Shown piece after piece: positions 4,946 to 55,385 of a DNA stretch of 64,000 nt. The notes beneath the pieces were generated by a model. That model did no database searches. It was not told where the DNA came from and saw only the letters and a list, made by a program, of their open reading frames with translations. Made by a program: the position numbers and the translations under genes. The DNA comes from Chiridota heheva. Taxonomy: Eukaryota > Echinodermata > Holothuroidea > Apodida > Chiridotidae. Where the stretch lies: positions 644,001 to 708,000 of the forward strand of contig JAIGNY010002044.1 in NCBI GenBank assembly GCA_020152595.1, given 5' to 3'. Within the stretch, counting starts at the first letter, position 1. Each line of letters begins with the position of its first letter.

Positions 4946-5089
4946 TGTATGCTTCATCTTTTTTTTGTGCCTTCGTTATCGAGAACCTGGCAAGCTTTTA
5001 TCCTTCATAATCCTTATAATTACAAGTTTCTTGATGCGATTTTAGTTGAAAAGTTTTCATGCAGTGATATTTATCATTTTGTTCTTCAG

Positions 5090-34999: not shown

Positions 35000-35530
35000 C
35001 ATTTTCACCAATTCATTTAACTCTCAAAGATAAAGATTTCTGCCACATCATGTCAAAAAGAGTGATAGGTGAGAAAAGCAGTTTTAAACCTTTGAAACAT
35101 ACCTAAACCCTGGATGAATGTAATTTATTTAATCTTGGACTATCATTCTGTCCCACTACTTTGTTAAACTTTATTGAATCATAACCAATGGCACCAACTG
35201 TTTGCAGAAGGTGGAATTCTTCCATTCACCAGAAGTTGCAAAATGACCCAAGGTACAACACTTTTCAGCCATTTAAGAAAAAGCTTTAGCTTTTATTCCA
35301 GCAACTGGAAAAATCCGACACTTGCGCTCCTGTTGCAGGAATCAAAAAATAAGTAGACACTTTATTATCATTGAGACAAAAATTATGTGTTTTATAATAA
35401 ACTTGTTGATACCCAGACATCACACACACTGTCATGTTTCATTAATATATATATATCAAGTTGATTCAAAGGACACAAGCATCTTCCTGTATTTTTACTT
35501 ATGGATTAAGTCGTGGATTTACTATTCAAT
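35000..35530. other. anonymous sequence
   Basis: Nothing supported. A short ATATAT run occurs at 35446-35456. Confidence 0.4.
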
Positions 35531-35539
35531 TATGTTGAA

Positions 35540-36600
35540 TGCACCTTATTTGGTAGATGTCAATTTACTCCAGGCTAGACAAACTCATGAAAAGCTTAAA
35601 CAGAAGCTTGCTCAAACAAGGTCTGACATTCATTTTCTATCGTGCTGTAAAACATTGGATCTTATACCTAGGGGTTTCATGCTGAATAACCCTTCTCGGA
35701 AATGCTTCCAGGAACAATGCACCACAGCGACTTATCAAAGGACTTCGGAAAAGCTACTAAGGATCTTGACATTACCCAGTGCATATGCTGAACAACAAAA
35801 ACCTTCAAACAAATTTGAACAGTTGTGCATGTTTCTTTCTAGAATCTTCAACAACCCACCAGTTATAAAGGCACTCCCAACTTTGTCAAGGAACTTCTGA
35901 AGAAAGAAACAAGATGTCATTTTGACATGGAAGAAGAAAAAGCTTCAAGATTTTATAGGCAAATTACCTATAAACACAGCACTACAAGAGAAGGAAGTTA
36001 TCCCAGATTTGACCAACAATCATCATGCCATCAAAATATGCTGCCTAACGGTGAGATTTCCAGTTTTCAATTTACCAAGCCATGAGAATTATCAGAGAGT
36101 GAATGTAGCTTGCTTGATTTCCTTTTGTTCCACCCCTTTCATTAGATAATGAAGAACTTCATAAGGATATTCACAAGTACACATCTCGCCTATGCAAAGC
36201 TGAATTTTTCAGTTCCGACAACACATCAGCTAATGATTATACTCCTGAGTTGGGTCCTTCAAAACGCCATCTCTTTGGACCCCCCGCCCCCCTTCCCTGT
36301 GGGAAGAAATGCCACACTAGATACCCATATCCTAAATTGCAAAGCAGTTAGATGCATTCCTAAATGACTTGAAAACACACCAATCAAAGCTTTGTGAAAA
36401 TTTAACTTTTAAACAACGACATGGACTCCACGATCTTCAAAAGAATAACAGCATCATAATCAAGCCAGCGGATAAGAGATGCAGCACCACTGTTCTTAAA
36501 AAAAGTAGATACAGAGAGAAGATGTGTCACAACTCACCAACAAGAATTTTTAAAATCGACTTAATACTGAATAAATCCAATGAAGCCCGAGGTGGGGCTA
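35540..36600 (+). pseudogene. N-terminal part of a Penelope-like / GIY-YIG-type retroelement ORF
   Basis: 35322-35900 is open. Its second half reads a Lys/Gln-rich region, then HFLSCCKTLDLIPRGFML. That resembles the non-catalytic N-terminal part of proteins in which a reverse transcriptase is followed by a GIY-YIG nuclease. After several shifts, 36369-36776 contains LTFKQRHGLHDLQKNNSIII KPADK (36447-36476), the conserved (I/V)(I/V)IKPADKG block just upstream of the RT palm. The RT itself is absent: the sequence is lost near 36600. Assignment rests on remembered family patterns and needs a profile search. Confidence 0.5.
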
Positions 36601-36989
36601 TTCCCTTACATTCTTTTGATCTGTATGTCTTCATTCAGAAACCAATTGTCCCAAGAGCAATTTTTCTTCTCGGTATAAATCTGTTACGTTTCCTTGTTTG
36701 GTTATTATGGAATCAACACTTAAACAAACCATGTTCTATAATTGATAAACGGCGATCATTGGTCGGAACTAAATAGCATACTATATAAGATACTATGCTT
36801 CCATGCTTTACCCATTTCTACATCAAACCTATAAATCACTCAAACAGTCAAATATAATATTCAAAACATACACGAGAAGTTGAATTTGTCTTTATCACTT
36901 TTACACAGTAATTTTCTGATCCAGTCTAATGTTTTGTTAATTGTTTGAGATCAACATTTGCAATCGTGCCTCGAGTACCTCTGGCAATA

Positions 36990-38545
36990 GCAGCGAAGAA
37001 GAATTTCTTATTTCCAGGATAAAAACACCAGCAATATAGTCAGCATTTTTGTCAAGGAAGGGGTTGCACTCAACCAAAAAACAGTCAAAAGTATAAATGC
37101 TAAGTGGAAAGGGGAGAGAACTATTTTGGACAAGCCTAGAGCAAGTAACGTTCAGCAGATCTAGATACCCTCATATCTGAAAATAAAGAGATAACGTCAG
37201 TAAAGATTCAAAAGGAATTGATTTCTGCATTTGGACTTTCAGTTGATGTGTCCACTATCAAGCGCATCAGGAAAAAAATTGGGTTGGGTATGCTCCAAAC
37301 CATTATACGCCAACTAATCACAAACAAAAATCAAACTTGAGGCTGGAGTATTTAATTTCCTCTTTGGAAAGATAAGACACTTTTGATAATGCAATATTTA
37401 CTGACGAATGCTCAGTAGATTTATGACAATACAATTCCGTCAGAAGTGGAAGCTACCAGAACTTAATGGAAAACCAAAACACCCCACAAAAGTTTATGTC
37501 CTGGCCGGCATATCAGCGTGTGGTGCCACAGAAATACTAATTTACGATCGAATAATCATTTTATATAGATTTTAATCAGAAGAAGGGCAAGCTTAAGTTT
37601 ATAAGAAAAGTTTTTTCAAAAGGAGATCAAAGGTTTATTCAGGACATGACCCAAACACATTAGTGACCTTCATAAAGTAATTCATGAAGAAGAACAACAT
37701 CCACTGGTGGCCAACACCTCCCCGAGATACAGATCTGAATCTAATAGAAATGGTATGGTATGAACTCAAGAACAACATCCACTGGTGATCAAGATCTACC
37801 GGAGATACAGATCTGAACCCAATAGAAATGGTATGGTATGAACTCAAGAACAACATCCACTGGTGATCAAGATCTACCGGAGATACAGATCTGAACCCAA
37901 TAGAAATGGTATGGCATGAACTCAAGAACAACATCCACTGGTGATCAACATCTCCCGGAGATCTGGATCTGAGCCCCATAGGAATGGTATGGCACCAATT
38001 CGAGAACATCCACCGGTGGCCAACATCTCCTGGAGATCCGGATCTGAGTCCCATAGGAATGGTATGGCATGAACTCGAGAACATCCACCAGTGGCCAACA
38101 CCTCCTAGAGATCCGGATCTGAATCCCATAGGAATGGTATGGCATGAACTCGAGAACATCCACCGGTGGCCAACACCTCCTAGAGATCTGGATCTGAATC
38201 CCACAGGAATGGTACTGCATGAACTCAAGAACATCCACCGGTGGCCAACACCTCCTGGAGATCCGGATCTGAATCCCACAGGAATGGTATGGCACGAACT
38301 CGAGAACATCCACCGGTGGCCAATACCTCCTGGAGATCCAGATCTGAATCCCACAGGAATGGTATGGCACGAACTCGAGAACATCCACCGGTGGCCAACA
38401 CCTCCTGGAGATCCGGATCTGAAGCTCATAGAAATAATCTGGCACAAATTCAAAAACAACATCCATTGGTGGCCAACGCCTTCCGGAGATCCGGATCTGA
38501 ACCCCATAGAAATGGTTTGGCACCAACTCAAGAACAATTCCCCAA
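36990..38545 (+). pseudogene. Tc1/mariner-type transposase fossil
   Basis: In order: an HTH region (VALNQKTVKSINAKWKGERT and SVKIQKELISAFGL, VDVSTIKRIRKKIG, 37060-37290), the first catalytic aspartate in FDNAIFTDEC (GAC at 37403-37405), and the block KPKHPTKVYVLAGIS-ACGATEI (37470-37535). A degraded RFIQDMTQTH (normally QDND, second aspartate) is at about 37630-37660. The C-terminal WWPTPP-x-DPDLNPIEMVW region is last and has expanded into the repeat listed next. Many stops and shifts occur. Inverted terminal repeats were not found. DD34E-type Tc1 is inferred from DLNPIE, whose E is the third catalytic residue. Confidence 0.75.
37690..38545 (+). repeat. minisatellite made from the transposase DLNPIE coding segment, 11 copies
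   Basis: Eleven head-to-tail copies of a 75-78-bp unit, marked by the codons for (N/P)-(I/T)-(E/G)-M-V-W at about 37743, 37821, 37899, 37976, 38051, 38126, 38200, 38275, 38350, 38427 and 38503. Each encodes approximately H-x-WPTPPGDPDLNPIEMVW HELKN. Copies 1-3 are 78 bp and carry TGG TGA where others have TGG CCA. Copies 4-9 are 75 bp and have GGA (Gly) where copies 1-3, 10 and 11 keep GAA (Glu). All unit lengths except small junction changes are multiples of three, so a plus frame (37984-38568) and a minus frame (38537-37635) stay open. Confidence 0.9.
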
Positions 38546-38569
38546 TTAAGAGCTATCAGTTGACTTGAT

Positions 38570-39440
38570 AGTTAGTAATAGACAACAAGTTACCCTATAC
38601 TGAAAACCTTCTATTAATTAGAATACAGAATTATGACATTTGCATGTAACATTATTGCAAGTTTTAGCGTTTAGCATGTTTAGCAATAAAAAGTGATAAA
38701 ACATGTATCTGTAACAATGAAACATTAGAAAATAACGTCTAACGAGTGACGTTTATGCTAACTTAGTGTACAGTGAAGTTAGTGTATCCTAGCTTATCCT
38801 ATTGTTCGGTCATTCATGTCTTCAGTATATGTGTAAGCCTGTGCCAGTATGCCAGGCCTAAGTCAGTAACTTGTAAATTAGGGCCTAACATTAGTCTACA
38901 AGTATGAGGTGTCTGCGAGGTGACTATAAGTTCTAATATCCAATAACTTTATTGTAGTTAAAATACACGTCAACTGAAATCAAAAGTTATCAAAACGTTT
39001 AAAAATATGTCTGTTGACCAGTGTCACAACCAAACATATCACAACCACCATAACAATTTGTATGTTTGAACTTTTACCCATAATTTTGCTTGTAAAGCTA
39101 CACAGTTGGAGAGGAAGTGGCTTATAAGTACTAGGTAAAATGGCTTGTGTGCCTAACAAGGGTTAGTATGTAGTAGGTAAAATGACCACTTTCTATCTAA
39201 CAAGTGTGGTAGTGGGGTTTACTGCATTTCTCTTTTAAACAGCTGTGCATCTTTGTGCAAAATACGCAAGAAGCTTTTATTACTTTGAAGGACCACAAGA
39301 AAAACTGTGACACTAACCCAAAATGCAGACTAATAAATTCGGCAAAATCAAAACTCGGTACAATCAGCAAAATTATTCTCGACAGAGTTAATTAAAAAAT
39401 CATTGCTGAAACTGACAGAAGAACACCGCTGCTGTGCTAA
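38570..39440. other. anonymous sequence
   Basis: No recognisable gene or repeat. Confidence 0.4.
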
Positions 39441-39451
39441 AGTAGTTTACA

Positions 39452-40275
39452 TTGATTAAAAACAAACCACAAAATTCATTTATTTGTTTCAATATTGTGG
39501 ACTTTGACCCTTTCACCACCGAGGAATTACTGACGCCTTATCATTTGCCCAGCAGTTTGACACAATCACAAACCAAGAGTGGAATACCATTTATGCAGTG
39601 TAGGAAATCTTTTCTTTTAACCAACGAGACCTCTTGTATGAAGCAATTCGAGAATGATATGTTTGACATCACAATGTATAGCTTTGACGGGGCTGAAGTA
39701 TGTGAGCTTGTCGGTACATACCTTATGCACCAGATCACCCAGAAATACAATAACGACAACATTGGTTTATAAAGAGACGATGGCCTCGCAGCATTTAATG
39801 AGCCCCCACGAGTAACAGAGCAATTAAAGGACTTTTGCGAAATATTTGGAAAGTATAAACTGAAAATCACCATTGAAGCTAACCTGAAGGTTTTTAAATA
39901 CCTTGATGTTACCCTAAATCTCACCAAGAATGAGTACGGCCCCTATATAAAACCGAACAACACTCCTTTATCATACACGCCAAATGCAACCACCCACCTT
40001 CGAGCCTAAAAAACATCCCCGAAGCCCCAAACAAATGACTCAACGAAATTTTATCAAATGAAGATATCTTTGATAAAGTCACCCCTGTTTACCAACGAGC
40101 GCTCGACAATAGTGGTTATTCTTATCAATTGAAGTACCAAGAACCAGCGCAGAAAAAATAGAGAAACCACCAACGTAACATCACCTGGTACAACCCCCCA
40201 TTTAACAAAAATGTTACCACCATATCGGAAAAGAATTCCTCTAGCTAGTCCACAAACACTTCTCACCCAACAATA
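39452..40275 (+). pseudogene. reverse transcriptase fragment, Penelope-like / GIY-YIG-associated family
   Basis: The text SFICFNIVDFDPFTTEELL corresponds to the first catalytic aspartate block (usually DFYPSITEELL), then DMFDITMYSFDGAEVCELVG, then IGL-stop-RDDGLA, where the RT catalytic pair DD is at 39776-39781. A TAA at 39770-39772 replaces the tyrosine codon before RDD. Downstream in another frame are KITIEANLKVFKYLDVTLNL and, after further shifts, NITWYNPPFNKNVTT and HKHFSPNNKLHE. These are conserved in a widespread invertebrate RT family associated with GIY-YIG nucleases. The family name is inference. The fragment is cut near 40275 by piggyBac-derived sequence. Confidence 0.6.
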
Positions 40276-40940
40276 AACTTCATGAGCATGATGGAATCAT
40301 ACCTCAGCACAGGATATACACCATTCATGGACAATTACTACACTTCTCCCGTTTTACTACAGAAGTGGCTATACATAAGCAGGTGGCACATTATGGTTAA
40401 ACAATAAAAGGGTGCCAAAAGAAATTGCGGATGCAAAACTAAAAGAAAAGAAGGTGATGCACTATAGCCGACTCACGCTGATGAAGAAAGATTATATTTT
40501 CTCCCTGTGCATTCAACAGCACATGGAAACAACAGATGTTGAAACAATAAAAAGTAAATCCAGTCACCAACGAGAAAGTTCTTGCCCCTGAATGTTGATT
40601 TATCAGAGATCGGATGGTATCATCAAATAATTTCGAAAGGAAATCCTTGAAGTGGTGAAAGAAATGCTTTTTTTCTCCATATTATTAGTTTATGTTTTGT
40701 GTACCTATGGCTTGTACATAGAGTGGCACAATGGTGTCAAAGTAAAACCTGTCCTACAGTTTTTCATTGAACTTGTAAGTACATTGCTTGAAAGCTGTGG
40801 GCCTCTTCCAAGCTTTCAAATGACAGTTGAGAGAAAATGTGCTGCTTTACTTTTATGCTTAGAGGGAAGACATTCCCTGTTTGGCACAGAAACCTTGATA
40901 CCAAGGCAGCAGCCCCTGCTCCCCCTTTCTTACACCACAG
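40276..40940 (+). pseudogene. piggyBac transposase C-terminal region, unit 1 (longest)
   Basis: Starts with MESYLSTGYTPFMDNYYTSP, the block of DDE_Tnp_1_7 (piggyBac) transposases that carries a catalytic aspartate (MDNYYTSP). Then KGVPKEIADAKLKEKK-type text, the insertion-domain end, NVDLSEIGWYHQIISKGNPL plus KWWK (read best in other units), FFIELV and CLEGRHSLFGTETL. It is broken by shifts and stops. Only this unit keeps the MDNYYTSP part, so the other seven copies descend from a segment starting at the KG(V/A)P codons. A donor-like CAG/gtataa ends it, about 290 bp before the BEN exon. Confidence 0.7.
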
Positions 40941-41229
40941 GTATAATATTCCATTATTATAATTTTTTCATTTATACCCCACAGATTTTTCTAACTTAAA
41001 AACTCTTGCATAGTTTTTCAATCTCGATCAGCCATACCTCAATTACAAAAAGAGCTGTTATAAAATAAAAAAGCAGAACTATTTATGTAGCCAATAGAGG
41101 GGATATTGTCAAGGCCTGTGTACCCTCCTTTCTACCTTTTCCACTGATTGTCAAAGTGTTGTAATTAAAAGCACTGGGTACTTGTAATGACCCTTGCATA
41201 CATTTAAGTATTTCTTTCATCCATTCTAG

Positions 41230-41401
41230 ATACCGGAGAATGTTTACCAGTATGCCCTCAGTGAGAGCAGAATGAATGCAGTTAGACTTTTAGCGTTAGC
41301 TCTTTTTACAGAAGAAGAACTAAAACAATCAACTGTCACTGGCCGCTCAAGACATGGAAGCAAGCAGCGGCTTGACATGGCCAAAGTGAAAATAATAGAA
41401 G
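41230..41401 (+). CDS. BEN-domain exon, copy 1 (intact)
   Basis: 172 bases, open in the frame ATA CCG GAG: IPENVYQYALSESRMNAVRL and then LALALFTEEELKQSTVTGRS, RHGSKQRLDMAKVKIIEG. The hydrophobic LLxLxLFxxEEL followed by S-V-T-G-R and a basic QRLD is the pattern of the first half of a BEN domain, a DNA- and protein-binding module of chromatin regulators. The leftover G would join AT of the last exon to give aspartate. The match to BEN is from pattern memory. Confidence 0.6.
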
Positions 41402-41696
41402 GTAAGCGCTGACTGCAATTGTGTTTCCTATATGTAATGAACCTCCCACAACTTCCTCATTTCTGCATAACTAGGGGTCTGACGATACCATCCCACGCAA
41501 AAGCATTCCGCAGGTTGGGATTTAGAACTATCAGACAACTTAATTCAAATTTTAGTGTAGGCTTCTTTATTGCACATAATTGTGTTGACTATCGACGATA
41601 TTCAGTACAACATCCTAGGCCACACTGCACATTGTTATCCAAATACAGCTACATGTAACATAATGAACTGTGTTCTGAGACAAATTTCTGAGGAAA

Positions 41697-42235
41697 AGGG
41701 TGCCTGCAAAAAAAGCGGATGCAAAACTAAAAGAAAAGAAGGTGATGCACTGTAGCCAACTCACGCTGATGAAGGAGAAAGATCATATTTTCTCCCTGTG
41801 CATTTAACAGCACATGGAAACAACTGATGTCGAAACAATGAAAAGTAAATCCAGTCACCAACGAGAAAGTTCTTGCCCCTGAATGCCGAGATATCAGAGA
41901 TCGGATGGTATCATAAAATAATTTCAAAAGGAAATCCCTGAAGTGGTGAAAGAAATGCTTTTTTTCTCCATATTATTAGTTTATGTGTGGTGTACCTATG
42001 GCTTGCACATAGAGTGGCACCATGGTGTCAAAGTAAAACCTGTCCTACACAGTTTTTCATTGAACTTGTAAGTCTATTGCTTGAAAGCTGTGGGCCCCTT
42101 TCAAGCTTTCAAATGACAGTTGGGAGAAAATCTGCTGCTTTACTTTTATGCTTAGAGGGAAGACATTTCCTGTTTGGCACAGAAACCTTAAGACCAAGGC
42201 CGCAGCCCCCTTGCTCCCCCTTACTTACACCACAG
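41697..42235 (+). pseudogene. piggyBac C-terminal remnant, unit 2
   Basis: Starts at the KGVP(A) codons and ends at the CAG/gtataa donor-like site. A one-base insertion (CCCCCTTGC) makes the frame end LLTPQ, which would be in phase with the BEN exon if spliced. This frame is specific to this unit. Confidence 0.6.
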
Positions 42236-42527
42236 GTATAATATTCCATTATTAGTTTTCCATTTATACCCCACAGATTTTTTTAACTTAAAAACTCTTG
42301 CATAGTTATTCAATCTCGATCAGCCACACCTCACTAACATAAAGAGCTGTTATAGAATTAAAAAGCAGTGTACTCAGAACTATTTATGTAGCACAATAGA
42401 GGGGATGTTGTCAAGGCCTGTGTACCCACCTTTCTACACCAGTGATTGTCAAAGTGTTGTAATTAAAAGCACTGGGTACTTGTAATGACCCGTGCATACA
42501 TTTGAGCATTTCTTTTATTCATTCTAG

Positions 42528-42699
42528 ATACCGGAGAATGTTTACCAGTATGCCCTCAGTGAGAGCAGAATGAAGGCAGTTAGACTTTTAACGTTAGCTC
42601 TTTTTACAGAAGAAGAACTAAATTAATCAACTGTCACTGGCCGCTCAAGACATGATAGCAAGCAGCGGCTTGACATGGCCAAAGTGAAAAAAATAGAAG
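42528..42699 (+). pseudogene. BEN-domain exon, copy 2 (nonsense)
   Basis: Same 172-base exon and splice sites, but AAA CAA has become AAT TAA, a stop at 42624-42626. HGSK reads HDSK. Confidence 0.7.
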
Positions 42700-42998
42700 G
42701 TAAGCGCTGACTGCAATTCTGTTTCCTATATATAATGAACCTCCCACATCTTCCTCATTTCTGCGTCAGTCAACTAGGGGTCTGAAAATACCATCCCATG
42801 CAAGAGCATTCCGCAGGTTGGGATTTACAACTATCAGACAGCTTCATTCAAATTTTAGAATAGGCTTCTTTATTGCACATAATTGTGTAAATTATCGACG
42901 ATATTCAGTACAACATCCTAGGCCACACTGCACATTGTTATCCAAATACAGCTACATGTAACATAATGAGTTGTGTTCTGAGACAAATTTCTGAGGAA

Positions 42999-43534
42999 AA
43001 GGGTGCCCGCAGAAAATGCGGATGCAAAACTGAAAGAAAAGAAGGTGATGCACTGTAGCCAACTCACGCTAATGAAGAAGAAAGATCATATATTTTTCCT
43101 GTGCATTCAACAGCACATGGAAACAACTGATGTCGAAACAATGAAAAGTAAATCCAGTCACCAACGAGAAAGTTCTTGTCCCTGAATGTTGATTTATCAG
43201 AGATCGGATGGTATCATCAAATAATTTCGAAAGGAAATCCTTTAAGTGGTCAAAGAAATGCTTTTTTCTCCATATTATTAGTTTATGTGTTGTGTGCCTA
43301 TGGCTTATACATAGAGTGGCACAATGGTGTCAAACTAAAACCTGTCCGACAGTTTTTCATTGAACTTAGTAAGTCCATTGCTTGAAAGCTGTGGGCCCCT
43401 TCCAAGCTTTCAAATGACAGTTGGGAGAAAATCTGCTGCTTTACTTTTATGCTTAGAGGGAAGACATTCCCTGTTTGGCACAGAAACCTTGATACCAAGG
43501 CAGCAGCCCCTGCTCCCCCTTTCTTACACCACAG
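42999..43534 (+). pseudogene. piggyBac C-terminal remnant, unit 3
   Basis: Best copy of the text NVDLSEIGWYHQIISKGNPL (43179-43240), the region linking the RNase H-like fold to the C-terminal helices in piggyBac transposases. Stops and shifts otherwise. Confidence 0.65.
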
Positions 43535-43824
43535 GTATAATATTCCATTATTATAATTTTTTCATTTTATACCCCCCAGATTTTTCTAACTTAAAAACTC
43601 TTGCATAGTTATTCAATCTCCATCACCTCACTAACAAAAAAAACTGTTACAAAATTAAAAAGCAGTGTACTCAGAACTATTTATGTAGCACAATAGAGGG
43701 GATGTTGTAAAGGCCTGTGTACCCACCTTTCTACACCACTGATTGTCAAAGTGTTGTAATTAAAAGCACTGGGTGATTGTAATGACCCTTGCATACATTT
43801 GAGTATTTCTTTTATTCATTCTAG

Positions 43825-43996
43825 ATACCGGAGAATGTTTACCAGTATGCCCTCAGTGAGAGCAGAATGAAGGCAGTTAGACTTTTAACGTTAGCTCTTT
43901 TTACAGAAGAAGAACTAAAACAATCAACTGTCACTGGCCGCTCAAGACATGGGAGCAAGCAGCGGCTTGACATGGCCAAAGTGAAATTAATAGAAG
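43825..43996 (+). CDS. BEN-domain exon, copy 3 (intact)
   Basis: 172 bases, open. It differs from copy 1 at a handful of codons: R-M-K-A instead of R-M-N-A, LLTLALF instead of LLALALF, and KLIE instead of KIIE. Splice sites are kept. Confidence 0.6.
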
Positions 43997-44296
43997 GTAA
44001 GCGCTGACTGCAATTGTGTTTCCTATATATAATGAACCTCCCACATCTTCCTCATTTCTGCGTCAGTCAACTAGGGGTCTGACAATACCATCCCATGCAA
44101 GAGCATTCCGCAGGTTGGGATTTACAACTATCAGACAGCTTCATTCAAATTTTAGAATAGGCTTCTTTATTGCACATAATTGTGTAAATTATCGACGATA
44201 TTCAGTACAACATCCTAGGCCACACTGCACATTGTTATCCAAATACAGCTACATGTAACATAATGAACTGTGTTCTGAGACAAATTTCTGAGGAAA

Positions 44297-44837
44297 AGGG
44301 TGCCTGCAAAAAAAGCGGATGCAAAACTAAAAGAAAAGAAGGTGATGCACTGTAGCCAACTCACGCTGATGAAGAAGAAAGATCATATATTTTCCCTGTG
44401 CATTCAACAGCACATGGATGGAAGCAACTGATGTCGAAACAATAAAAAGTAAATCCAGTCACCAACGAGAAAGTTCTTGCCCCTGAATGCTAAGATATCA
44501 GAGATCGGATGGTATCATCAAATAATTTCGAAAGGAAATCCTTGAAGTGGTGGAAGAAATGCTTTTATTCTCCATATTATTAGTTTATGTGTGGTGTACC
44601 TATGGCTTGCACATAGAGTGGCACAATGGTGTAAAACTAAAACCTGTCCTACACAGTTTTTCATTGAACTTGCAAGTCCATTGCTTAAAAGCTGTAGGCC
44701 CCATCCAAGCTTTCAAATGACAGTTGGGAGAAAATGTGCTGCTTTACTTTTATGCTTAGAGGGAAGACATTTCCTGTTTGGCTCAGAAACCTTAAAACCA
44801 AGGTAGCAGCCCCTGCTCCCCCTTACTTACACCACAG
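44297..44837 (+). pseudogene. piggyBac C-terminal remnant, unit 4
   Basis: As in the other units. It has a 4-base insertion (ATGGATGGAAGC) shared with unit 5. Confidence 0.6.
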
Positions 44838-45123
44838 GTATAATATTCCATTATTATATTTTTCATTTATACCCCACAGATTTTTTAAATTAAAAATCTT
44901 GCATATTTATTCAATCTCGATCATCACCTCACTAACAAAAAAACTGTTACAAAATTAAAAAGCAGTGTACTCAGAACTATTTATGTAGCACAATAGAGGG
45001 GATGTTGTAAAGGCCTGTGTACCCACCTTTCTACACCACTGATTGTCAAAGTGTTGTAATTAAAAGCACTGGTGATTGTAATGACCCTTGCATACATTTG
45101 AGTATTTCTTTTATTCATTCTAG

Positions 45124-45292
45124 ATACCGGAGAATGTTTACCAGTATGCCCTCAGTGAAAGCAGAACGAAGGCAGTTAGACATTTAACGTTAGTTTTTTT
45201 TTACAGAAGAACTAAAACAATCAACTGTCACTGGCTGCTCAAGACATGGGAGCAAGCACAGCTTGACATGGCCAAAGTGAAAATAATAGAAG
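45124..45292 (+). pseudogene. BEN-domain exon, copy 4 (two compensating frameshifts)
   Basis: 169 bases. A net 2-base loss in the LFTEEEL codons (GTTAGTTTTTTTTTACAG) shifts the frame. A 1-base loss at CAGCGG (now CACAGC) restores it, so exon length stays compatible with the downstream frame but the middle of the domain is scrambled. Confidence 0.7.
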
Positions 45293-45591
45293 GTAAGCGC
45301 TGACTGCAATTGTTTTTCCTATATATAATGAACCTCTCACATCTTCCTCATTTCTGCGTCAGTCAACTAGGGGTCTGAAAATACCATCCCATGCAGGAGC
45401 ATTCCGCAGGTTGGGAGTTGGAACTATCAGACAACTTAATTCAAATTTTAGTGTAGGCTCCTTTATTGCACATAATTGTCTTGACTATCGACGATATTCA
45501 GTTCAACATCCTAGGCCACACTGCACATTGTTATCCAAATACAGCTACATGTAACATAATGAGTTGTGTTCTGAGACAAATTTCAAAAGAA

Positions 45592-46133
45592 AAGGGTGCC
45601 CGCAGAAATTGCGGATGCAAAACTTAAAGAAAAGAAGGTGATGCACTGTAGCCAACACACGGTGATGAAGAAGAAAGATCATATATTTTCCCTGTGCATT
45701 CAACAGCACATGGATGGAAACAACTGATGTCGAAACAATAAAAAGTAAATCCAGTCACCAACGAGAAAGTTCTTGCCCCTGAATGCCGAGATATCAGAGA
45801 TCGGATGGTATCATAAAATAATTTCGAAAGGAAATCCTTGAAGTGGTGGAAGAAATGCTTTTTTTCTCCATATTATTAGTTTATGTGTTGCGTGCCTATG
45901 GCTTGTACATAGAGTGGCACAATGGTGTCAAACTAAAGCCTGTCCTACACAGTTTTTCATTGAACTTGTAAGTCCATTGCTTAAAAGCTGTAGGCCCCAT
46001 CCAAGCTTTCAAATGACAGTTGGGAGAAAATGTGCTGCTTTACTTTTATGCTTAGAGGAAAGACATTTCCTGTTTGGCACAGAAACCTTAAAACCAAGGT
46101 AGCAGCCCCTGCTCCCCCTTACTTACACCACAG
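45592..46133 (+). pseudogene. piggyBac C-terminal remnant, unit 5
   Basis: Same structure. The text CLEERHFLFGTETLKPR is open from 45914 to a stop at 46100. Confidence 0.6.
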
Positions 46134-46426
46134 GTATAATATTCCATAATTATTAGTTTTCCATTTATACCCCACAGATTTTTTTAAATTAACAAATCTT
46201 GCATATTTATTCAATCTCGATCAGCCATACCTCAATAACAAAAGAGCTGTTATAAAATTAAAAAGCAGTGTACTCAGAACTATATATGTAGCCAATAGAG
46301 GGGATGTTGCAAAGGCCTGTGTACCCACCTTTCTACACCACTGATTGTCAAAGTGTTGTAATTAAAAGCACTGGGTGATTGTAATGACCCTTGCATACAT
46401 TTGAGTATTTCTTTTATTCATTCTAG

Positions 46427-46595
46427 ATACCGGAGAATGTTTACCAGTATGCCCTCAGTGAAAGCAGAACGAAGGCAGTTAGACTTTTAACGTTAAACTC
46501 TTTTTACAGAAGAACTAAAACAATCAACTGTCACTGGCCGCTCAAGACATGGGAGCAAGCACAGCTTGACATGGCCAAAGTGAAATTAATAGAAG
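46427..46595 (+). pseudogene. BEN-domain exon, copy 5 (same compensating shifts)
   Basis: 169 bases with the same net -2 and -1 changes as copy 4, though the first site differs in sequence (GTTAAACTCTTTTTACAG). Copies 4 and 5 therefore share ancestry or have exchanged sequence. Confidence 0.7.
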
Positions 46596-46893
46596 GTAAG
46601 CGCTGAATGCAATTCTGTTTACTATATATAATGAACCTTTCACATCTTCCTCATTTCTGCGTCAGTCAACTAGGGGTCTGAAAATACCATCCCACGCAAG
46701 AGCATTCCGCAGGTTGGGATTAGAACTATCAGACAACTTCATTCAAATTTTAGTGTAGGCTCCTTTAATGGACATAATTGTGTTGACTATCGACAATATT
46801 CAGTACAACATCCTAGGCCACACTGCACATTGTTATCCAAATACAGCTACATGTAACATAATGAGTTGTGCTCTGAGACAAATTTATGAGGAA

Positions 46894-47432
46894 AAGGGTG
46901 CCCGCAGAAATTGCGGATGCAAAACTAAAAGAAAAGAAGGTGATGCACTATAGCCAACTCACGCTGATGTAGAAGAAAGATCATATTTTCTCCCTGTGCA
47001 TTCAACAGCACATGGAAACAACAGATGTCGAAACAATGAAAAGTAAATCCAGTCACCAACGAGAAAGTTCTTGCCCCTGAATGCTAAGATATCAGAGATC
47101 GGATGGTATCATCAAATAATTTCAAAAGGAAATTCCTGAAGTGGTGAAAGAAATGCTTTTTTTCTGCATATTATTAGTTTATGTGTTGTGTACCTATGGC
47201 TTGTACATAGAGTGGCACCATGGTGTCAAACTAAAGCCTGTCCTACACAGTTTTTCATTCAATTTGTAAGCTCATTGCTTGAAAGCTGTGGGCCCCATCC
47301 AAGCTTTCAAATAACAATTGGGAGAAAATCTGCTGCTTTACTTTTATGCTTAGAGAAAAGACATTCCCTGTTTGGCACAGAAACCTTAAAACCAAGGCGG
47401 CTGCCCCTTGCTCCCCCTTACTTACACCACAG
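46894..47432 (+). pseudogene. piggyBac C-terminal remnant, unit 6
   Basis: Open from 47188 (QFFIQFVSSLLESCGPHPSF, LEKRHSLFGTETL) through the donor-like site, which reads CAG/gtatga here. Confidence 0.6.
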
Positions 47433-47716
47433 GTATGATATTCCATTATTATTATCCATTTATACTCCACAGATTATTTTAACTTAAAAACTCTTGCATA
47501 GTTATTCAATCTCCATCACCTCACTAACAAAAAAAACTGTTACAAAATTAAAAAGCAGTGTACTCAAAAGTATTTATGTAGCACAATAGAGGGGATGTTG
47601 TAAAGGCCTGTGTACCCACCTTTCTACACCACTGATTGTCAAAGTGTTGTAATTAAAAGCACTGGTAATTGTAATGACCCTTGCATATATTTGAGTACTT
47701 CTTTTATTCATTCTAG

Positions 47717-47887
47717 ATACCGGAGAATGTTTACCAGTATGCCCTCAGTGAGAGCAGAACGAAGGCAGTTAGACATCTAACGTTAGTTTTTTTTTTACAG
47801 AAGAACTAAAACAATCAACTGTCACTGGCTGCTCAAGACATGGGAGCAAGCAGCGGCTTGACATGGCCAAAGTGAAAATAATAGAAG
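47717..47887 (+). pseudogene. BEN-domain exon, copy 6 (frameshift)
   Basis: 171 bases. A net 1-base loss in the T-run region (GTTAG then ten T) is not compensated, and the CAGCGG site is normal. The frame is lost. Confidence 0.75.
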
Positions 47888-48189
47888 GTAAGCGCTGACT
47901 GCAATTGTGTTTCCTATATATAATGAATCTCCTACATCTTCCTCATTTCTGCGTCAGTCAACTAGGGGTCTGACGATACCATCCCACGCAAGAGCATTCC
48001 GCAGGTTGGGATTTAGAACTATCAGACAACTTAATTCAAATTTTAGTGTAGGCTCCTTTATTGCACATAATTGTGTTGAATATTATCCACGATATTCAGT
48101 ACAACATCCTAGGCCACACTGCACATTGTTATCCAAATACAGCTACATGTAACATAATGAGTTGTGCTCTGAGACAAATTTATGAGGAA

Positions 48190-48725
48190 AAGGGTGCCCG
48201 CAGAAATTGCGGATGCAAAACTAAAAGAAAAGAAGGTGATGCACTATAGCCGACTCACGCTGATGAAGAAAGATTATATTTTTTCCCTGTGCATTTAACA
48301 GCACATGGAAACAACTGATGTCGAAACAATGAAAAGTAAATCCAGTCACCAACGAGAAAGTTCTTGCCCCTGAATGCTAAGATATCAGAGATCGGATGGT
48401 ATCATCAAATAATTTCAAAAGGAAATTCCTGAAGTGGTGAAAGAAATGCTTTTTTTCTGCATATTATTAGTTTGTATGTTGCGTGCCTATGGTTTGTACA
48501 TAGAGTGGCACCATGGTGTCAAACTAAAGCCTGTCCTACACAGTTTTTCATTCAACTTGTAAGCCCATTGCTTGAAAGCTGTGGGCCCCTTCCAAGCTTT
48601 CAAATAACAGTTGAGAGAAAATGTGCTGCTTTACTTTTATGCTTAGAGGGAAGATATTTCCTGTTTGGCACAGAAACCTTAAAACCAAGGCGGCAGGCCC
48701 CTGCTTCCCCTTACTTACACCACAG
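48190..48725 (+). pseudogene. piggyBac C-terminal remnant, unit 7
   Basis: Same structure as units 2-6. ATA replaces ATG in the QMTV codons (QITV), as in units 6 and 8. Confidence 0.6.
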
Positions 48726-49020
48726 GTATAATAATCCATTATTATTAGTTTTCCATTTATACCCCACAGATTTTTTTAACTTAAAAACTCTTGCATAGTT
48801 ATTCCATCTCCATTCAACCATACTTCATTAACAAAAAGAGCTGTTATAAAATCAAAAAGCAGTGTACTCAGAACTATATATGTAGCCAATAGAGGGGATG
48901 TTGCCAAGGCCTGTGTACCCACCTTTCTACACCACTGATTGTCAAAGTGTTGTAATTAAAAGCACTGGGTAATTGTAATGACCCTTGCATATAATTGAGT
49001 ATTTCTTTCATTCATTCTAG

Positions 49021-49192
49021 ATACCAGAGAATGTTTACCAGTATGCCCTCAGTGAGAGCAGAACAAAGGCAGTTAGACTTTTAACGTTAACTCTTTTTAC
49101 AGAGGAAGAACTAAAACAATCAACTGTCACTGGCTGCTCAAGACATGGGAGCAAGCAGCGGCTTGACATGGCCAAAGTGAAATTAATAGAAG
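49021..49192 (+). CDS. BEN-domain exon, copy 7 (intact)
   Basis: 172 bases, open: IPENVYQYALSESRTKAVRL, LTLTLFTEEELKQSTVTGCS, then RHGSKQRLDMAKVKLIEG. Identical, as far as I can see, to copy 8 at 52123. It is followed 628 bases later by a last exon whose frame is broken (49821-49910). Confidence 0.6.
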
Positions 49193-49820
49193 GTAAGCGC
49201 TGACTGCAATTGTTTTTCCCATATATAATGAACCTCTCACATCTTCTTCATTTCTGCGTCAGTCAACTAGGGCTCTGACAATATCATCCCACGCAAAAGC
49301 ATTTTGCAAGTTGGGATTTAGAACTATCAGACAACTTAATTCAAATTTTAGTGTAGGCTCCTTTATTGCACATAATTGTGTTGAATATCATCCACGATAT
49401 TCAGTACAACATCCTAGGCCACACTGCACATTGTTATCCAAATACAGCTAACATAATGAGTTGTTAAGTGAGACAAATTTAATATACACCTATAATATGC
49501 GGAAATGATTAACCCTGTGCAAATTAACAATTATGGTTTTTAACATTCGTCTGATACATGTATGTAGATTAATCCTTCTTCTGGCTTTGGCAAAATTTCA
49601 GAGGGGCTATTTCACGTTTAGGAGAACGCAGGGGATGGGGGGGGGGGGGTGCTAAGCTCCCAATAGCCACCTCCACCTAAAGTTGATAGTCCTGAATATA
49701 AAATTGCTTTCTTTTATGTTGATTTATTAGTAAGGACTGAAAACAGAATGATAATACAATCATTACATGATATTTTTGCCTATTTAGATATTCATCTGTT
49801 TTACTTTTTTTTCTTTGCAG

Positions 49821-49910
49821 ATTTTATGAAAAAAAAACTTTAATTGCCCTGTACCTGAAACACGAAAAGTGATCGGAGATGAGTGTAGAGAGCTGATTCG
49901 ATATGGATAA
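49821..49910 (+). pseudogene. last BEN exon, copy A (frameshifted)
   Basis: Acceptor TTCTTTGCAG. Relative to copy B at 52910 an A-run (ATGAAAAAAAAACTT) adds one base, so the frame reads FMKKKL and a stop. The rest, encoding NCPVPETRKVIGDECRELIR Y, is preserved in the wrong frame. Confidence 0.7.
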
Positions 49911-50729
49911 CATCAATAATCCAGTATTTTATATAATGCTTACACATACAGCTTATGTATCTATATATATCTCTATATACTGTATATATATATATATCTC
50001 AATTATGCGACACGGGTACAAATGTGTCATAAGAAATTTCAACCATAGCATAATGTACGACAAATTTGTCATAAACGCATGAACCCTGATTGTGATATTT
50101 CATTGTTGAAGGATATGTATTACACTGCCTGTAATCATGTTTTTAATTGTCTACATTGTATGTGGTATGAAATGCATGCAAAGTTGCATATCTTTTTCAG
50201 GACTTTTTGGAAGAGTGGGATGGGGGGGAGAATGGGGGCACACAAGCACTTAATGAGGGGGAACTTGGGCAGATTCTCCATATATCCCTGTTATATTTTT
50301 GATTTATTTTTTGCAAGGGGGATTTATTTTTTGCAAGGGGGATTTATTTTTTGCAAGGGGGATTTATTTTTTGCAAGGGGGGCACGGGGGCTGGCCACGG
50401 GCCTGATCTTTTTGTAGGCTTATAATAACAACACGGTATCTGTTACATCAGGATAACGTGCTTCAACCAAGATCCTCTTGATAAAAGTGTGATTTGCAAA
50501 ATAAAAAGATTGTAGATATAAACTTCTATTAAGTGTAATTTTAATTGATCAAAGTACCACATTAGCTAAGATGAAATGTGAACATTACATGCTTTCACTT
50601 GAAAATATTGAAATCTGCCTATCTTGATAAACATTTTATCAGCATGGGATATGTTCTTTGTTATTCTGACTTTTGTTTCATTCCCAGAAATAATCACCTT
50701 CGTTTGAGTGTAAATTTTCAATCCCTATT

Positions 50730-51115
50730 CAGAACCTCATCTGCACAATAAAGGTCTCGTTTTGGGAAAGACCTCATCTGCACAATAAAGGTCTCATAAT
50801 GGGAAAGACCTCATCTGCACAATAAAGGTCTCGTTTTGGGAAAGACCTCATCTGCACAATAAAGGTCTCCTTATGGGAAAGACCTTATCTGCACAATAAA
50901 GGTCTCATAATGGGAAAGACCTCATCTGCACAATAAAGGTCTCCTTATGGGAAAGACCTAATCTGCACAATAAAGATCTCCTTATGGGAAAGACCTAATC
51001 TGCACAATAAAGGTCTCGTAATGGGAAAAACCTCATCTGCACAATAAAGGTATCATTATGGGAAAGACCTCATCTGCACAATAAAGGTATCATTATGGGA
51101 AAGACCTCATGTGTA
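50730..51115. repeat. 37-bp tandem repeat, about 10 copies
   Basis: Unit GACCTCATCTGCACAATAAA GGTCTC followed by (G/A/C)T(T/A)(T/A)TGGGAAA. Variation is concentrated in the four bases before TGGG. The duplicate locus at 55035-55110 has only two copies. Confidence 0.95.
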
Positions 51116-51372
51116 TTAAAAGTTCACTAAATTTGCAGATTATTTGTCCTTAGTTTTAAGATTTCTTCCAGACCGCTTGTTTTGCAAACATTGGGGTCCA
51201 TATTCCAAATATAAGCCTAAGGGTGCACAGTGAAACTTATTTTGCTTTATCAATTAAATTAAACATACAGGATAACTGTAGCACTGAATAATGTCTTGCG
51301 GTATACTGTATATAAGTGTTACACTTTACAACTTTTCATTATGTACCGTCTTGTCATTAATTATTTCATATA

Positions 51373-51828
51373 GCCAACTCACGGTGATGAAGAAGATCAT
51401 ATTTTTTCCCTGTGCATTCAACAGCACATGAAAACAACTGATGTCGAAACAATGAAAAGTAAATCCAGTCACCAACGAGAAAGTTCTTGCCCCTGAAAGT
51501 TGATTTATCAGAGATCAGATGGTATCATAAAATAATTCGAAAGGAAATCCTTGAAGTGGTGGAAGACATGCTTTTTTCTCCATATTATTAGTTTATGTGT
51601 TGTGTGCCTATGGCTTATACATAGAGTGGCACAATGGTGTAAAACTAAAGCCTGCCCTACACAGTTTTTCATTGATGAAAGCTGTGGGCCCCTTCCAAGC
51701 TTTCAAATAACAGTTGGGAGAAAATCTGCTGCTGTACTTTTATGCTTGGAGAAAAGACATTCCCTGTTTGGCACAGAAACCTTAAAACCAAGGCGACTGC
51801 CCCTTGCTCCCCCTTACTTACACCACAG
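51373..51828 (+). pseudogene. piggyBac C-terminal remnant, unit 8
   Basis: Clearest piggyBac match: from 51551 the frame reads LKWWKTCFFLHIISLCVV, as in the KWWKK-x-FFHLLD helix of DDE_Tnp_1_7 proteins. Then QFFID, a short deletion, and SCGPLPSFQITVGRKSAAVL. Ends at CAG/gtataa. Confidence 0.7.
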
Positions 51829-52122
51829 GTATAATATTCCATTATTATTAGTTTTCCATTTATACTCCACAGATTTTTTTAACTTAAAAACTCTTGCATA
51901 TTTATTCAATCTCTATCAGCCATACCTCAATAACAGAAAGAGCTGTTATAAAATTAAAAAGCAGTGTACTCAGAACTATATATGTAGCCAATAGAGGGGA
52001 TGTTGCCAAGGCCTGTGTACCCACCTTTCTACACCACTGATTGTCAAAGTGTTGTAATTAAAAGCACTGGGTAATTGTAATGACCCGTGCATACATTTGA
52101 GTTTTTCTTTTATTCATTCTAG

Positions 52123-52294
52123 ATACCAGAGAATGTTTACCAGTATGCCCTCAGTGAGAGCAGAACAAAGGCAGTTAGACTTTTAACGTTAACTCTTTTT
52201 ACAGAGGAAGAACTAAAACAATCAACTGTCACTGGCTGCTCAAGACATGGGAGCAAGCAGCGGCTTGACATGGCCAAAGTGAAATTAATAGAAG
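52123..52294 (+). CDS. BEN-domain exon, copy 8 (intact, paired with intact last exon)
   Basis: 172 bases with TTCATTCTAG acceptor and GAAG/gtaagc donor. Open and same sequence as copy 7. Its trailing G joins AT of the exon at 52910 to make an aspartate codon, giving a continuous BEN domain of about 86 codons ending in a stop. This is the one combination in the array that can encode a complete C-terminal BEN domain from adjacent exons. Upstream exons carrying the rest of the protein were not found. Confidence 0.65.
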
Positions 52295-52909
52295 GTAAGC
52301 GCTGGCTGCAATTCTGTTTCCTATTTATAATGAACATCCCACATCTTCTTCATTTCTGCGTCAGTCAACTAGGGCTCTGACAATATCATCCCACGCAAAA
52401 GCATTTTGCAAGTTGGGATTTAGAACTATCAGACAACTTAATTCAAATTTTAGTGTAGGCTCCTTTATTGCACATAATTGTGTTGAATATTATCCACGAT
52501 ATTCAGTACAACATCCTAGGCCACACTGCACATTGTTATCCAAATACAGCTAAGATAATGAGTTGTGTTCAGAGACAAATTTAATATACACCTATAATAT
52601 GCGGAAATGATTAACCCTGTGCAAATTAACAATTATGGTTTCTAACATTCGTCTGATACGTAGATTAATACTTCTTCTGGATAGGGCAAAATTTTTGGGG
52701 CTATACCACATTTAGAATGCGAGGGGGGGGGGGGGAGTGCTAAGTTCCCAATAGCCACCTCCACCTAAAGTTGGTACTGTCCTGAATATAAAATTGCTTT
52801 CTTTTATGTTGATTTATTAGTAAGGACTGAAAACGATTAATAATACAATCATTACATGATATTTTTGCCTATTTAGATATTCATCTGTTTTACTTTTTTA
52901 TCTTTGCAG

Positions 52910-52998
52910 ATTTCATGAGGAAACACTTTAATTGCCCTGTACCTGAAACACGAAAAGTGATCGGAGATAAGTGTAGAGAGCTGATTCGATATAGATAA
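52910..52998 (+). CDS. last BEN exon, copy B (intact)
   Basis: Acceptor TATCTTTGCAG. Reads (D)FMRKHFNCPVPETRKVIGDK then CRELIRYR and TAA at 52996-52998. The F-x-x-HF...C/W-x-x-C-R-x-x-I arrangement is what closes a BEN domain. No AATAAA is obvious directly downstream; the 37-bp units contain AATAAA (first at about 55042). Confidence 0.65.
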
Positions 52999-53041
52999 CA
53001 CCAATAATCCAGTATTTTATATAATGCTTACACACAGATTA

Positions 53042-53290
53042 TATCTATCTCTATATATCTCTCTATATATCTCTCTATATATATCTCTCTCTGTATTTTG
53101 CATTTCTTTTTTGTTCACATTGTTTTGCATTAATTGTTGTGTCGCTGCGCCATGAGCATCACTTTTGATTAATACTGGCACATAAGTATTCATTATTATT
53201 ATATATATATACATATATTATATAAATATATATAGAGAGAGAGATGGTGAATGGTGAGAGAGAAAGACGAAGAGAGAGAAAGAGAGAGAA
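53042..53290. repeat. microsatellites TATATCTC and GAGA
   Basis: (CTCTATATAT)n at 53047-53095, TA runs at 53198-53233, and GAGAGA/AGAGAAAG purine tracts at 53233-53292. Confidence 0.9.
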
Positions 53291-53617
53291 TACAGTAGAG
53301 CAGCTTGACTTGCAGATTGTGATCAATTCACAGATACATGATCTTACACATACAACACAATCCAGGAGGAAAGTAGAAACCTAGCCTAAAGCTGACAATG
53401 GACAGCCTGCATTCAAAACAACATCACGTACAGGGTAGATGTATATACTGACTATGCTGTAGTACTAGCCTATATGTGTTTATGTACAGTACTTGTACTG
53501 ACATGTTAAATAGTTTGACTGTTAGTTTCGTAGTTGTGTCAGAGGGGCAGCAAGTTAAATATGTCCAAAGCTTAGACAAGTGGGCAACCAAGTACAGCCT
53601 AAGTAACAGTAAGTTTA

Positions 53618-53692
53618 TGCATTTAGCTCTAAACAGAAGTGACTGGAGGGCCATGATCGCAATGTCTGTTCCAGACTTGGCACCAAGAGAGA
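53618..53692 (+). mobile_element. ORF2 C-terminus of a non-LTR retrotransposon (second copy)
   Basis: LALNRSDWRAMIAMSVPDLA, nearly the same nucleotides as 25575-25645 with one base missing after ATCGC. It lies in the 790-bp segment absent from duplication copy A, so it may have arrived with that segment. Confidence 0.55.
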
Positions 53693-54085
53693 GAGATATT
53701 TACTTTTATTTCTCAGTAAATGAAAATCATTTTTGTAAGAAATAAAAATCTAATCGTATCAGAGGTAATATTTTTAATTTAAACTTAATGAAAAACTCTG
53801 GCATAAAATTTCACATGCTTTATCTAAATTTTGCGACACAGGTACAACATGTGTCATACGAAATTTCAACCATAGCGTAATATACGACAAATTTGTCATT
53901 AACGCGAACCCTGATTGTGATATTTCATTGCTGAAGGATATGTTTTACACTGCCTGTAATCATGTTTTTAATTGTCTACATTGTATGTGGTATGAAATGC
54001 ATGCAAAGTTGCATATCTTTTTTAGGACTTTTTGCAAGGGTGGGGTGGGTAGAGGGGGGGGGGGGGTGGGCACACAAGCACTTAA

Positions 54086-54632
54086 CACCTTGGGTGCCAT
54101 ACGACGTAGATCTAAGTCAGACAGCCCCAACCGTTTAGTGCCAAATGACGTAGATCTACGTCAAGGCATCTAAACTTCCCACAATGCTATGTAACAATTT
54201 AGATCTTAATGAGCTACAGCTACTATGTACTGAAGATTGTCAATTACATGTAAATCTACATAGAGAATGTTGTATTGAGACATATCTACATTTCGTTGAT
54301 ATTTCTTTGGCAATAGTTTACGAAAAATGGCTCAGAGAAGAGAAGAAAACTTTGTTTCTGCGGAAGAAGCAGCCGAGCTGCTTGCCGATTTGGATTCAGA
54401 TATGGATGAAATCAACGAGGATTCTGATGACAGTTATGATGTGTCTAGCGAGGATTCATGTGATGAAAATTCAGATTCAGATAATGTTAGTGATGTGAAT
54501 ACTAGTTTAGCGACTTTTTCGGTAAATACCTTTATTTGTTCTTACAATATTTTATAATGAAAATATGGTTTTTTAAGGGTGAAACTCTGGCCCAAGGGGA
54601 AAATCTTGAAAAAACGTGTGGCACCCAAGGTG
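54086..54632. mobile_element. non-autonomous piggyBac-type transposon, 547 bp
   Basis: Perfect 13-bp terminal inverted repeats CACCTTGGGTGCC / GGCACCCAAGGTG, flanked by TTAA at 54082-54085 and 54633-54636. The subterminal region carries the palindrome-like GACGTAGATCTAAGTC and GACGTAGATCTACGTC. The paralogous copy A has a single TTAA at 50250-50253 with the same flanks (CACAAGCACTTAATGAG), a true empty site. TTAA duplication and these ends define piggyBac. Confidence 0.95.
54327..54557 (+). CDS. truncated piggyBac transposase N-terminus inside the transposon
   Basis: 77 codons: MAQRREENFVSAEEAAELLA followed by a highly acidic region (DSDMDEINEDSDDSYDVSSE). piggyBac transposases typically begin with such an acidic, disordered N-terminal region before the DDE domain. 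The frame is uninterrupted but ends shortly after an internal junction near 54525. None of the catalytic aspartates is present, so no transposase activity is expected. The element would need a transposase from elsewhere. Confidence 0.6.
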   Translation: MAQRREENFVSAEEAAELLADLDSDMDEINEDSDDSYDVSSEDSCDENSDSDNVSDVNTSLATFSVNTFICSYNIL

Positions 54633-55034
54633 TTAATGAGTGGGCACTTGGGCAGATTCTCCATATATCCCCTTTTTTTTGTTTTGATTGATGTTTTTTA
54701 AGGGGGGAACGGGGGCTGGCTACGGGCCTGATCTTTTTTGTAGGCTTTTAATAACAGCACGGTATCTGTTACATCAGGATAAGGTGCTTCAATCAAGATC
54801 CTCTTGATTATAGTGTGATTTGCAAAATAAAAAGACTTCAGATATAAACTTCTATTAAGTGTAATTCAAATTGATCAAAGTACCACATTAGTTCACATTA
54901 GCTAAGGTGAGATTCTGCCTATCTTGATAAACACTTCATCAGCATGGGATATCTTCTTTGTTATTCTGACTTTTGATTCATTCCCAGAAAAAATCACCTT
55001 CGTTTGATGTATTTTTCAATCCCTATTTAGAACC

Positions 55035-55110
55035 TCATCTGCACAATAAAGGTCTCATTATGGGAAAGACCTCATTTGCACAATAAGATCTTATTATGGG
55101 AAAAACCTCA
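55035..55110. repeat. 37-bp repeat, two copies (paralogue of 50730-51115)
   Basis: ACCTCATCTGCACAATAAAG followed by GTCTCATTATGGGAAAG, then a second unit with one internal deletion. Confidence 0.9.
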
Positions 55111-55385
55111 TGCGTATTAAAAGTTCACTTAAATTGCAGATTATTTGTCCTTATATTATTAAGATTTCTTCCAGACTGCTTTTGTTTTGCAAACATTGGG
55201 GTCCATATTGCAAATATGAGCCTAAGGGTGCACAGTGAAACTTTTTTTTTTTGCTTTATCAATTAAATTAAACATACAGGATAACTGTGGCACTGAATAA
55301 TGTCTTGGGGTATATGTATGTGTTACACTTTACAACTCTTCACTATGTACTGTCTTGTTATTAATTATTTCATGAATGTGAATTG

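Follow-up and report, generated by a model that had tools for sequence, protein, structure and literature searches.

Tandem exon duplications, in which an internal exon is repeated head to tail, are well known, and some of them are spliced as mutually exclusive exons, e.g., in Dscam and MHC among others (PMC9013439). Here, we describe an array of this kind in the holothuroid Chiridota heheva (GCA_020152595.1; 1.10 Gb in 3744 contigs), located in a stretch of 64,000 nucleotides (positions 644001-708000 of contig JAIGNY010002044.1), hereafter the window. The repeated exon encodes the first half of a BEN domain (PF10523), the domain of NACC1, BANP, BEND3 and Insensitive, and a remnant of a piggyBac transposase accompanies every copy. 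We consider it likely that the array arose by local exon duplication in a host BEN-domain gene that continued to be used. For the most part, this would be an ordinary local duplication, and it might provide a set of alternative exons.

The array shares with the duplications described in PMC9013439 the head-to-tail repetition of an internal exon, the presence of splice sites and an exon length not divisible by three; the exons are homologous, adjacent and in one orientation. It differs from them in that half of the copies are broken, the copies are nearly alike and their use as alternatives is putative. Mutually exclusive clusters have an open frame from every copy, and here four of eight are damaged. 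In contrast to the BEN domains of NACC1, BANP, BEND3 and Insensitive, the domain here is interrupted by an intron, and eight copies of the first half are present. The remnant can be aligned with the C-terminal DDE region of a genomic piggyBac (PF13843), a family with non-autonomous derivatives, but it is long dead and was copied by duplication rather than by transposition. Literature searches returned nothing on BEN domains with tandem exon duplication and nothing on invertebrate expansion of the BEN domain with domain architecture; judged by title and the start of the abstract, none of the papers found on BEN domains and piggyBac transposases concerned such a pairing.

Eight exon copies extend across 41230-52294, with the two closing exons beginning at 49821 and 52910. 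Copies 1-7 follow each other at a spacing of about 1.3 kb, and copy 8 lies 3.1 kb beyond. The original prediction of eight repeated units holds for the exons, but only seven units are contiguous, and the eighth lies inside a separate 3.1-kb duplication. The length of 172 bases given there applies to copies 1, 2, 3, 7 and 8, whereas copies 4 and 5 have 169 and copy 6 has 171. The features are:

41230-41401, forward strand: BEN first-half exon copy 1, 172 bases, frame intact
42528-42699, forward strand: BEN exon copy 2, 172 bases, in-frame stop TAA
43825-43996, forward strand: BEN exon copy 3, 172 bases, frame intact
45124-45292, forward strand: BEN exon copy 4, 169 bases, middle scrambled by indels
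46427-46595, forward strand: BEN exon copy 5, 169 bases, middle scrambled by indels
47717-47887, forward strand: BEN exon copy 6, 171 bases, frameshift
49021-49192, forward strand: BEN exon copy 7, 172 bases, intact, sequence identical to copy 8
52123-52294, forward strand: BEN exon copy 8, 172 bases, frame intact
49821-49909, forward strand: closing exon A (BEN second half), frameshifted, end approximate
52910-52998, forward strand: closing exon B (BEN second half, with C-terminal helix and stop), intact
40280-41000, forward strand: piggyBac transposase remnant copy 1, C-terminal part of the DDE domain; alignment to the genomic piggyBac frame L056 at 40280-40874
41694-42292, forward strand: piggyBac remnant copy 2
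42997-43595, forward strand: piggyBac remnant copy 3
44294-44894, forward strand: piggyBac remnant copy 4
45587-46192, forward strand: piggyBac remnant copy 5
46892-47488, forward strand: piggyBac remnant copy 6
48188-48785, forward strand: piggyBac remnant copy 7
51369-51888, forward strand: piggyBac remnant copy 8, cut short at the junction of the second duplication
40406-49480, forward strand: seven contiguous units of about 1.3 kb
48245-55373, forward strand: second tandem duplication, 48245-51369 copied to 51369-55373
54082-54636, forward strand: non-autonomous piggyBac insertion, TTAA at each end, only in the 3´ flank of copy 8

That the exon encodes the first half of a BEN domain, as had been proposed, was borne out by profile searches. 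Joined to closing exon B, copy 3 matched PF10523 with 33.1 bits (E 6.7e-8) and copy 8 with 31.6 bits (E 1.9e-7), both above the curated cut-off of 23.2 bits, and the joined exons cover profile positions 1-68 of 76. A search of the genome at E<=10 gave 34 matches (41 candidates scored), five in the array and 29 elsewhere, 20 of the latter exceeding the family cut-off; at the default E, only two matches were listed. Twelve of the 29 outside matches stop at profile positions 43-48, close to the end of the array exon. By eye, GT is found at the matching phase-1 position in five of six paralogue loci read, the sixth (L064) having GC, which suggests that the intron dividing the domain is probably ancestral. 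With the joined BEN sequence as query, a protein search at E<=0.001 returned 12 matches, all at the array locus, and querying PDB sequences with BEN and with two pieces of piggyBac yielded no usable match.

All eight exons carry the acceptor ATTCTAG and the donor GTAAGCGCTG, as had been noted, and the earlier count of four damaged frames is also correct. The frame is intact in copies 1, 3, 7 and 8; copy 2 has a stop, and copies 4, 5 and 6 have indels, of which those in copies 4 and 5 leave each exon three bases short, such that the phase is kept and the middle of the domain is scrambled. Both predicted closing exons are present, A out of frame and B open until its stop at 52998. The first-half exon is entered in phase 0 and left in phase 1, so two copies in one message would break the frame and each protein could hold one copy at most; copy-to-copy splicing ran into early stops in both pairings tried (1+3 and 7+8). 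Intact splice sites in eight of eight copies prove little about use at a divergence of about 7%. About 17% of flank columns vary, and four given bases are therefore expected to be unchanged in all copies with a probability of 0.47 (0.83^4). At the observed divergence such identity is to be expected, and we therefore did not accept conserved splice sites as proof of use.

Better evidence is that constraint is confined to the intact copies. When gapped columns and intron 2 are excluded, 10 of 172 exon columns vary among the intact copies, compared to 94 of 714 in the flanks (p 0.0055), and none of 119 overlapping flank windows of 172 bases is as low. The damaged copies have no such deficit (15/166 in the exon vs 78/739 in the flanks, p 0.67). 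Because variation is reduced in the intact and not in the damaged copies, the intact copies were probably under constraint. Between copies 7 and 8, there are no substitutions in the exon and 113 in the surrounding 1593 bases (Fisher p 1e-5; indels not counted, a few repeat-rich bases poorly aligned). The kept frames and the reduced change in copies 1, 3, 7 and 8 make it probable that the gene was expressed with at least one of these copies.

Several observations weigh against continued use. The grouping by intactness was chosen after the data had been seen, and when the 70 possible sets of four copies are ranked by exon-to-flank ratio, the intact set is only the second-lowest. With the eight copies taken together, the exon shows no significant slowdown relative to the flanks (20/166 vs 121/707 variable columns, p 0.13). 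Pairwise ratios of nonsynonymous to synonymous differences (pN/pS) among the intact copies are 0.40-0.85, based on few changes and not strongly below 1; copies 7 and 8, being identical, give no ratio, and pairs with the damaged copy 2 give 0.84-3.63. Gene conversion is likely active in the array and could also account for the likeness of copies 7 and 8, as substitution-free runs of 151 and 131 bases also occur in the introns. Finally, no upstream exon was found, and the array may be a dead gene fragment. Upstream exons were sought by eye in lists of open reading frames (ORFs), translations and sequence, covering parts of the window and of 70 kb of flanking sequence; none could be assigned, and the frames encountered were transposon-like, repeats or belonged to one receptor-tail-like gene.

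In that case, the whole array would be a dead, neutrally drifting piece from the 3´ end of a BEN gene, and the apparent constraint would be a product of gene conversion and the choice of groups. Half of the exons are broken, as is one of the pair of closing exons, and the surroundings are rich in transposons. Indels are as frequent in the exon (5 in 172) as in the piggyBac and preceding intron (24 in 761, p 1.0; intron 2 omitted because copies 1 and 8 carry unrelated sequence there), fitting decay of the whole array. We nevertheless find this rather doubtful, given that change is reduced in the intact exons only, that exon B is open through to its stop and that the substitution-free run shared by copies 7 and 8 spans the exon and only 11 bases ahead of it and 10 behind it. 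The related suggestion of a decaying tandem gene family was close in that decay is evident, but a single exon was copied and not a gene.

Within the reading of a duplication that stayed in use, the simplest version has a single working copy, with the others as relics at various stages, and copy 8, the nearest to exon B, is the probable candidate. Another possibility, which we consider unlikely, is a set of working alternative exons, in which copies 1, 3, 7 and 8 would be chosen singly and joined to exon B. The reduced change is seen across the four intact copies together and not in a single one, double inclusion is non-coding in the two pairings tried, and the splice sites are intact. Furthermore, the intact copies differ at six residues, including R/C within TG[R/C]SRHG. 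On the other hand, copies 7 and 8 encode an identical first half and there is little difference among the others, in contrast to diversified exon arrays; the broken half retains its splice sites and would give rise to many dead messages; and the signal of constraint is modest and post hoc. If alternative use did apply, a BEN factor could, tentatively, vary its first half through at least three exon versions (1, 3 and 7/8) while the base-reading last helix stays constant, and we would, with similar reserve, see an array caught midway between birth by duplication and decay.

Such variation would tune binding more than redirect it. In solved structures of human BEN domains bound to DNA, bases are read by the last helix, while the helix 3-4 loop contacts the backbone and, in some, the minor groove (PMC11472053). 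The closing exon would supply this last helix, and TG[R/C]SRHG would presumably lie in the helix 3-4 loop. First-half variants would thus adjust specificity rather than swap it.

Two duplications account for the array: one of about 1.3 kb, set off by a single founding join, and a later one of 3.1 kb. Self-comparison resolved the seven contiguous units and the separate duplication. The six internal junctions (at about 41687, 42990, 44287, 45583, 46885 and 48181) all link one point in intron 2 (GACAAATTT) to one point in piggyBac (AAAAGGGTGCC), with a few bases varying at the junction, and thus stem from one founding event. The second duplication has its junction at 51369, and the copied segment carries the closing exon; 51369-55373 contains two stretches missing from 48245-51369, one of which is a piggyBac insertion at 54082. 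Units differ from one another by about 4-10% in piggyBac and the preceding intron. The trees of piggyBac, intron and exon disagree, as expected from exchange between units.

The exon duplication that we favor probably took the following course. The array would represent the 3´ end of a host BEN-domain gene with its penultimate exon amplified locally. A dead piggyBac would have been situated ahead of this exon, and a join between intron 2 and piggyBac would have duplicated about 1.3 kb comprising the piggyBac C-terminus, an intron, the BEN exon and the start of intron 2. Unequal exchange may then have expanded the unit to seven, after which the second tandem duplication, of 3.1 kb, would have copied the last unit together with the closing exon and 3´ flank. 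Copies 2, 4, 5 and 6 and closing exon A have decayed since, and one or more of copies 1, 3, 7 and 8 were probably expressed joined to exon B, from a presumed transcript with upstream exons.

An alternative view of the regular head-to-tail units of uniform length is satellite DNA that happens to contain an exon, as had been listed among the options. We rejected this view as extremely improbable: a DNA search of the 1.1-Gb genome found the unit at a single locus, within the sensitivity of the search, and there are just eight units, which derive from a single founding join and end in gene and transposon sequence.

The piggyBac part of the unit was identified mainly from the genome itself. Against PF13843, one of three translated pieces scored 13.1 bits, below the cut-off of 22.4, and the other two gave nothing. 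As queries, we used 10 translated piggyBac frames from the same genome (from 30 fetched loci, with a forward-strand frame of more than 250 residues). We left an eleventh, L060, out of both the real and the reversed set because its longest frame is of low complexity; its best match, at E 0.001, was outside the array. At E<=0.3, 16 of 17 matches were inside the array on the forward strand, compared to none of three for the reversed proteins. The frame L056 aligned collinearly with copy 1 (658 columns, 59%, pairwise E 3.6e-28), running from MDNYYTSP to GRHSL in pieces with changing frame. On sequence grounds, this shows that the remnant descends from the C-terminal DDE region of a piggyBac transposase, in agreement with the original prediction. 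By eye, the cysteine-rich C-terminus of L056 was not seen in the array, and no piggyBac termini were recognised in the remnant. Copy 1 carries additional upstream piggyBac sequence reaching about 40280 and is cut on its 5´ side at about 40283; the preceding 84 bases match three other contigs at 83-88%, indicating that a dispersed repeat interrupts the first remnant.

The piggyBac is broken across frames in all four units translated (1, 2, 3 and 8), and with the piecewise match to L056 it looks like a passenger, its pairing with BEN being an apparent accident of a unit that happened to span a dead element. A functional pairing, i.e. a transposase joined to a BEN domain in a transposon or fusion gene, would explain why order and strand are constant in every unit. 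It might also find support in the genome, which has at least 117 piggyBac matches: of the 29 other BEN matches, three have one no more than 11 kb away, with about 0.07 expected if both were evenly spread. These three are on contigs C3695, C3176 and C459. The piggyBac precedes BEN in the array and on C3695 but follows it on C3176 and C459, which makes shared repeat-rich regions the likely cause of the proximity. Moreover, the best BEN match in the 30 fetched piggyBac loci was no better than E 0.97, and the piggyBac on C3695 is not detectably like that of the array (no match at E<=0.1). On C354, which holds a sister BEN copy, we compared 500 bases at about the distance of the C3695 piggyBac, leaving out the intervening 1.5 kb; alignment to the C3695 stretch was limited to the nearest 104 bases, and no part aligned to the piggyBac there. 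From the search of 30 loci, the comparison of C3695 with C354 and the differing order, we judged a piggyBac-BEN element very improbable.

The array cleanly illustrates the beginnings of an exon array, with two identifiable joins, a passenger transposon beside every exon as a neutral yardstick, and copies split between those that kept coding constraint and those that lost it. If several copies are used, it would represent a cluster of alternative exons at an early stage, situated within a DNA-binding domain; otherwise, it is a well-documented exon duplication leading nowhere.

The 3´ flanks of the two closing exons have features of their own. The insertion at 54082-54636 is a 547-base non-autonomous piggyBac with inverted ends and TTAA on both sides; it matches the two ends of a related full-length copy, 2.25 kb long and located on C3007 (L051), with 96% and 94% identity. 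Behind closing exon A, the duplicate flank has kept the empty TTAA site at 50250. A 37-base minisatellite containing AATAAA lies downstream of each closing exon (50734-51110 and 55031-55111), with 10 AATAAA in 10.2 units behind exon A and one in 2.2 units behind exon B; it amounts to a row of canonical polyadenylation hexamers behind the end of the gene.

Elsewhere in the window, Pfam searches with eight ORFs outside the array gave reverse transcriptase, endonuclease just below the cut-off and otherwise weak matches. The region upstream of copy 1 (about 35300-40283) holds frames that look retroelement-like by eye, although the frame scanned there (39446-39769) had no Pfam match. YAxV and related tyrosine motifs abound in open frames at 5068-5856 and some 11 kb upstream of the window; by eye these frames resemble a receptor tail (no Pfam match for 5068-5856) and are apparently the end of a host gene. 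A 27-base minisatellite of about 46 units at 13721-14948 contains four open frames of 313-335 residues, two on each strand, which stay open because 27 is a multiple of three.

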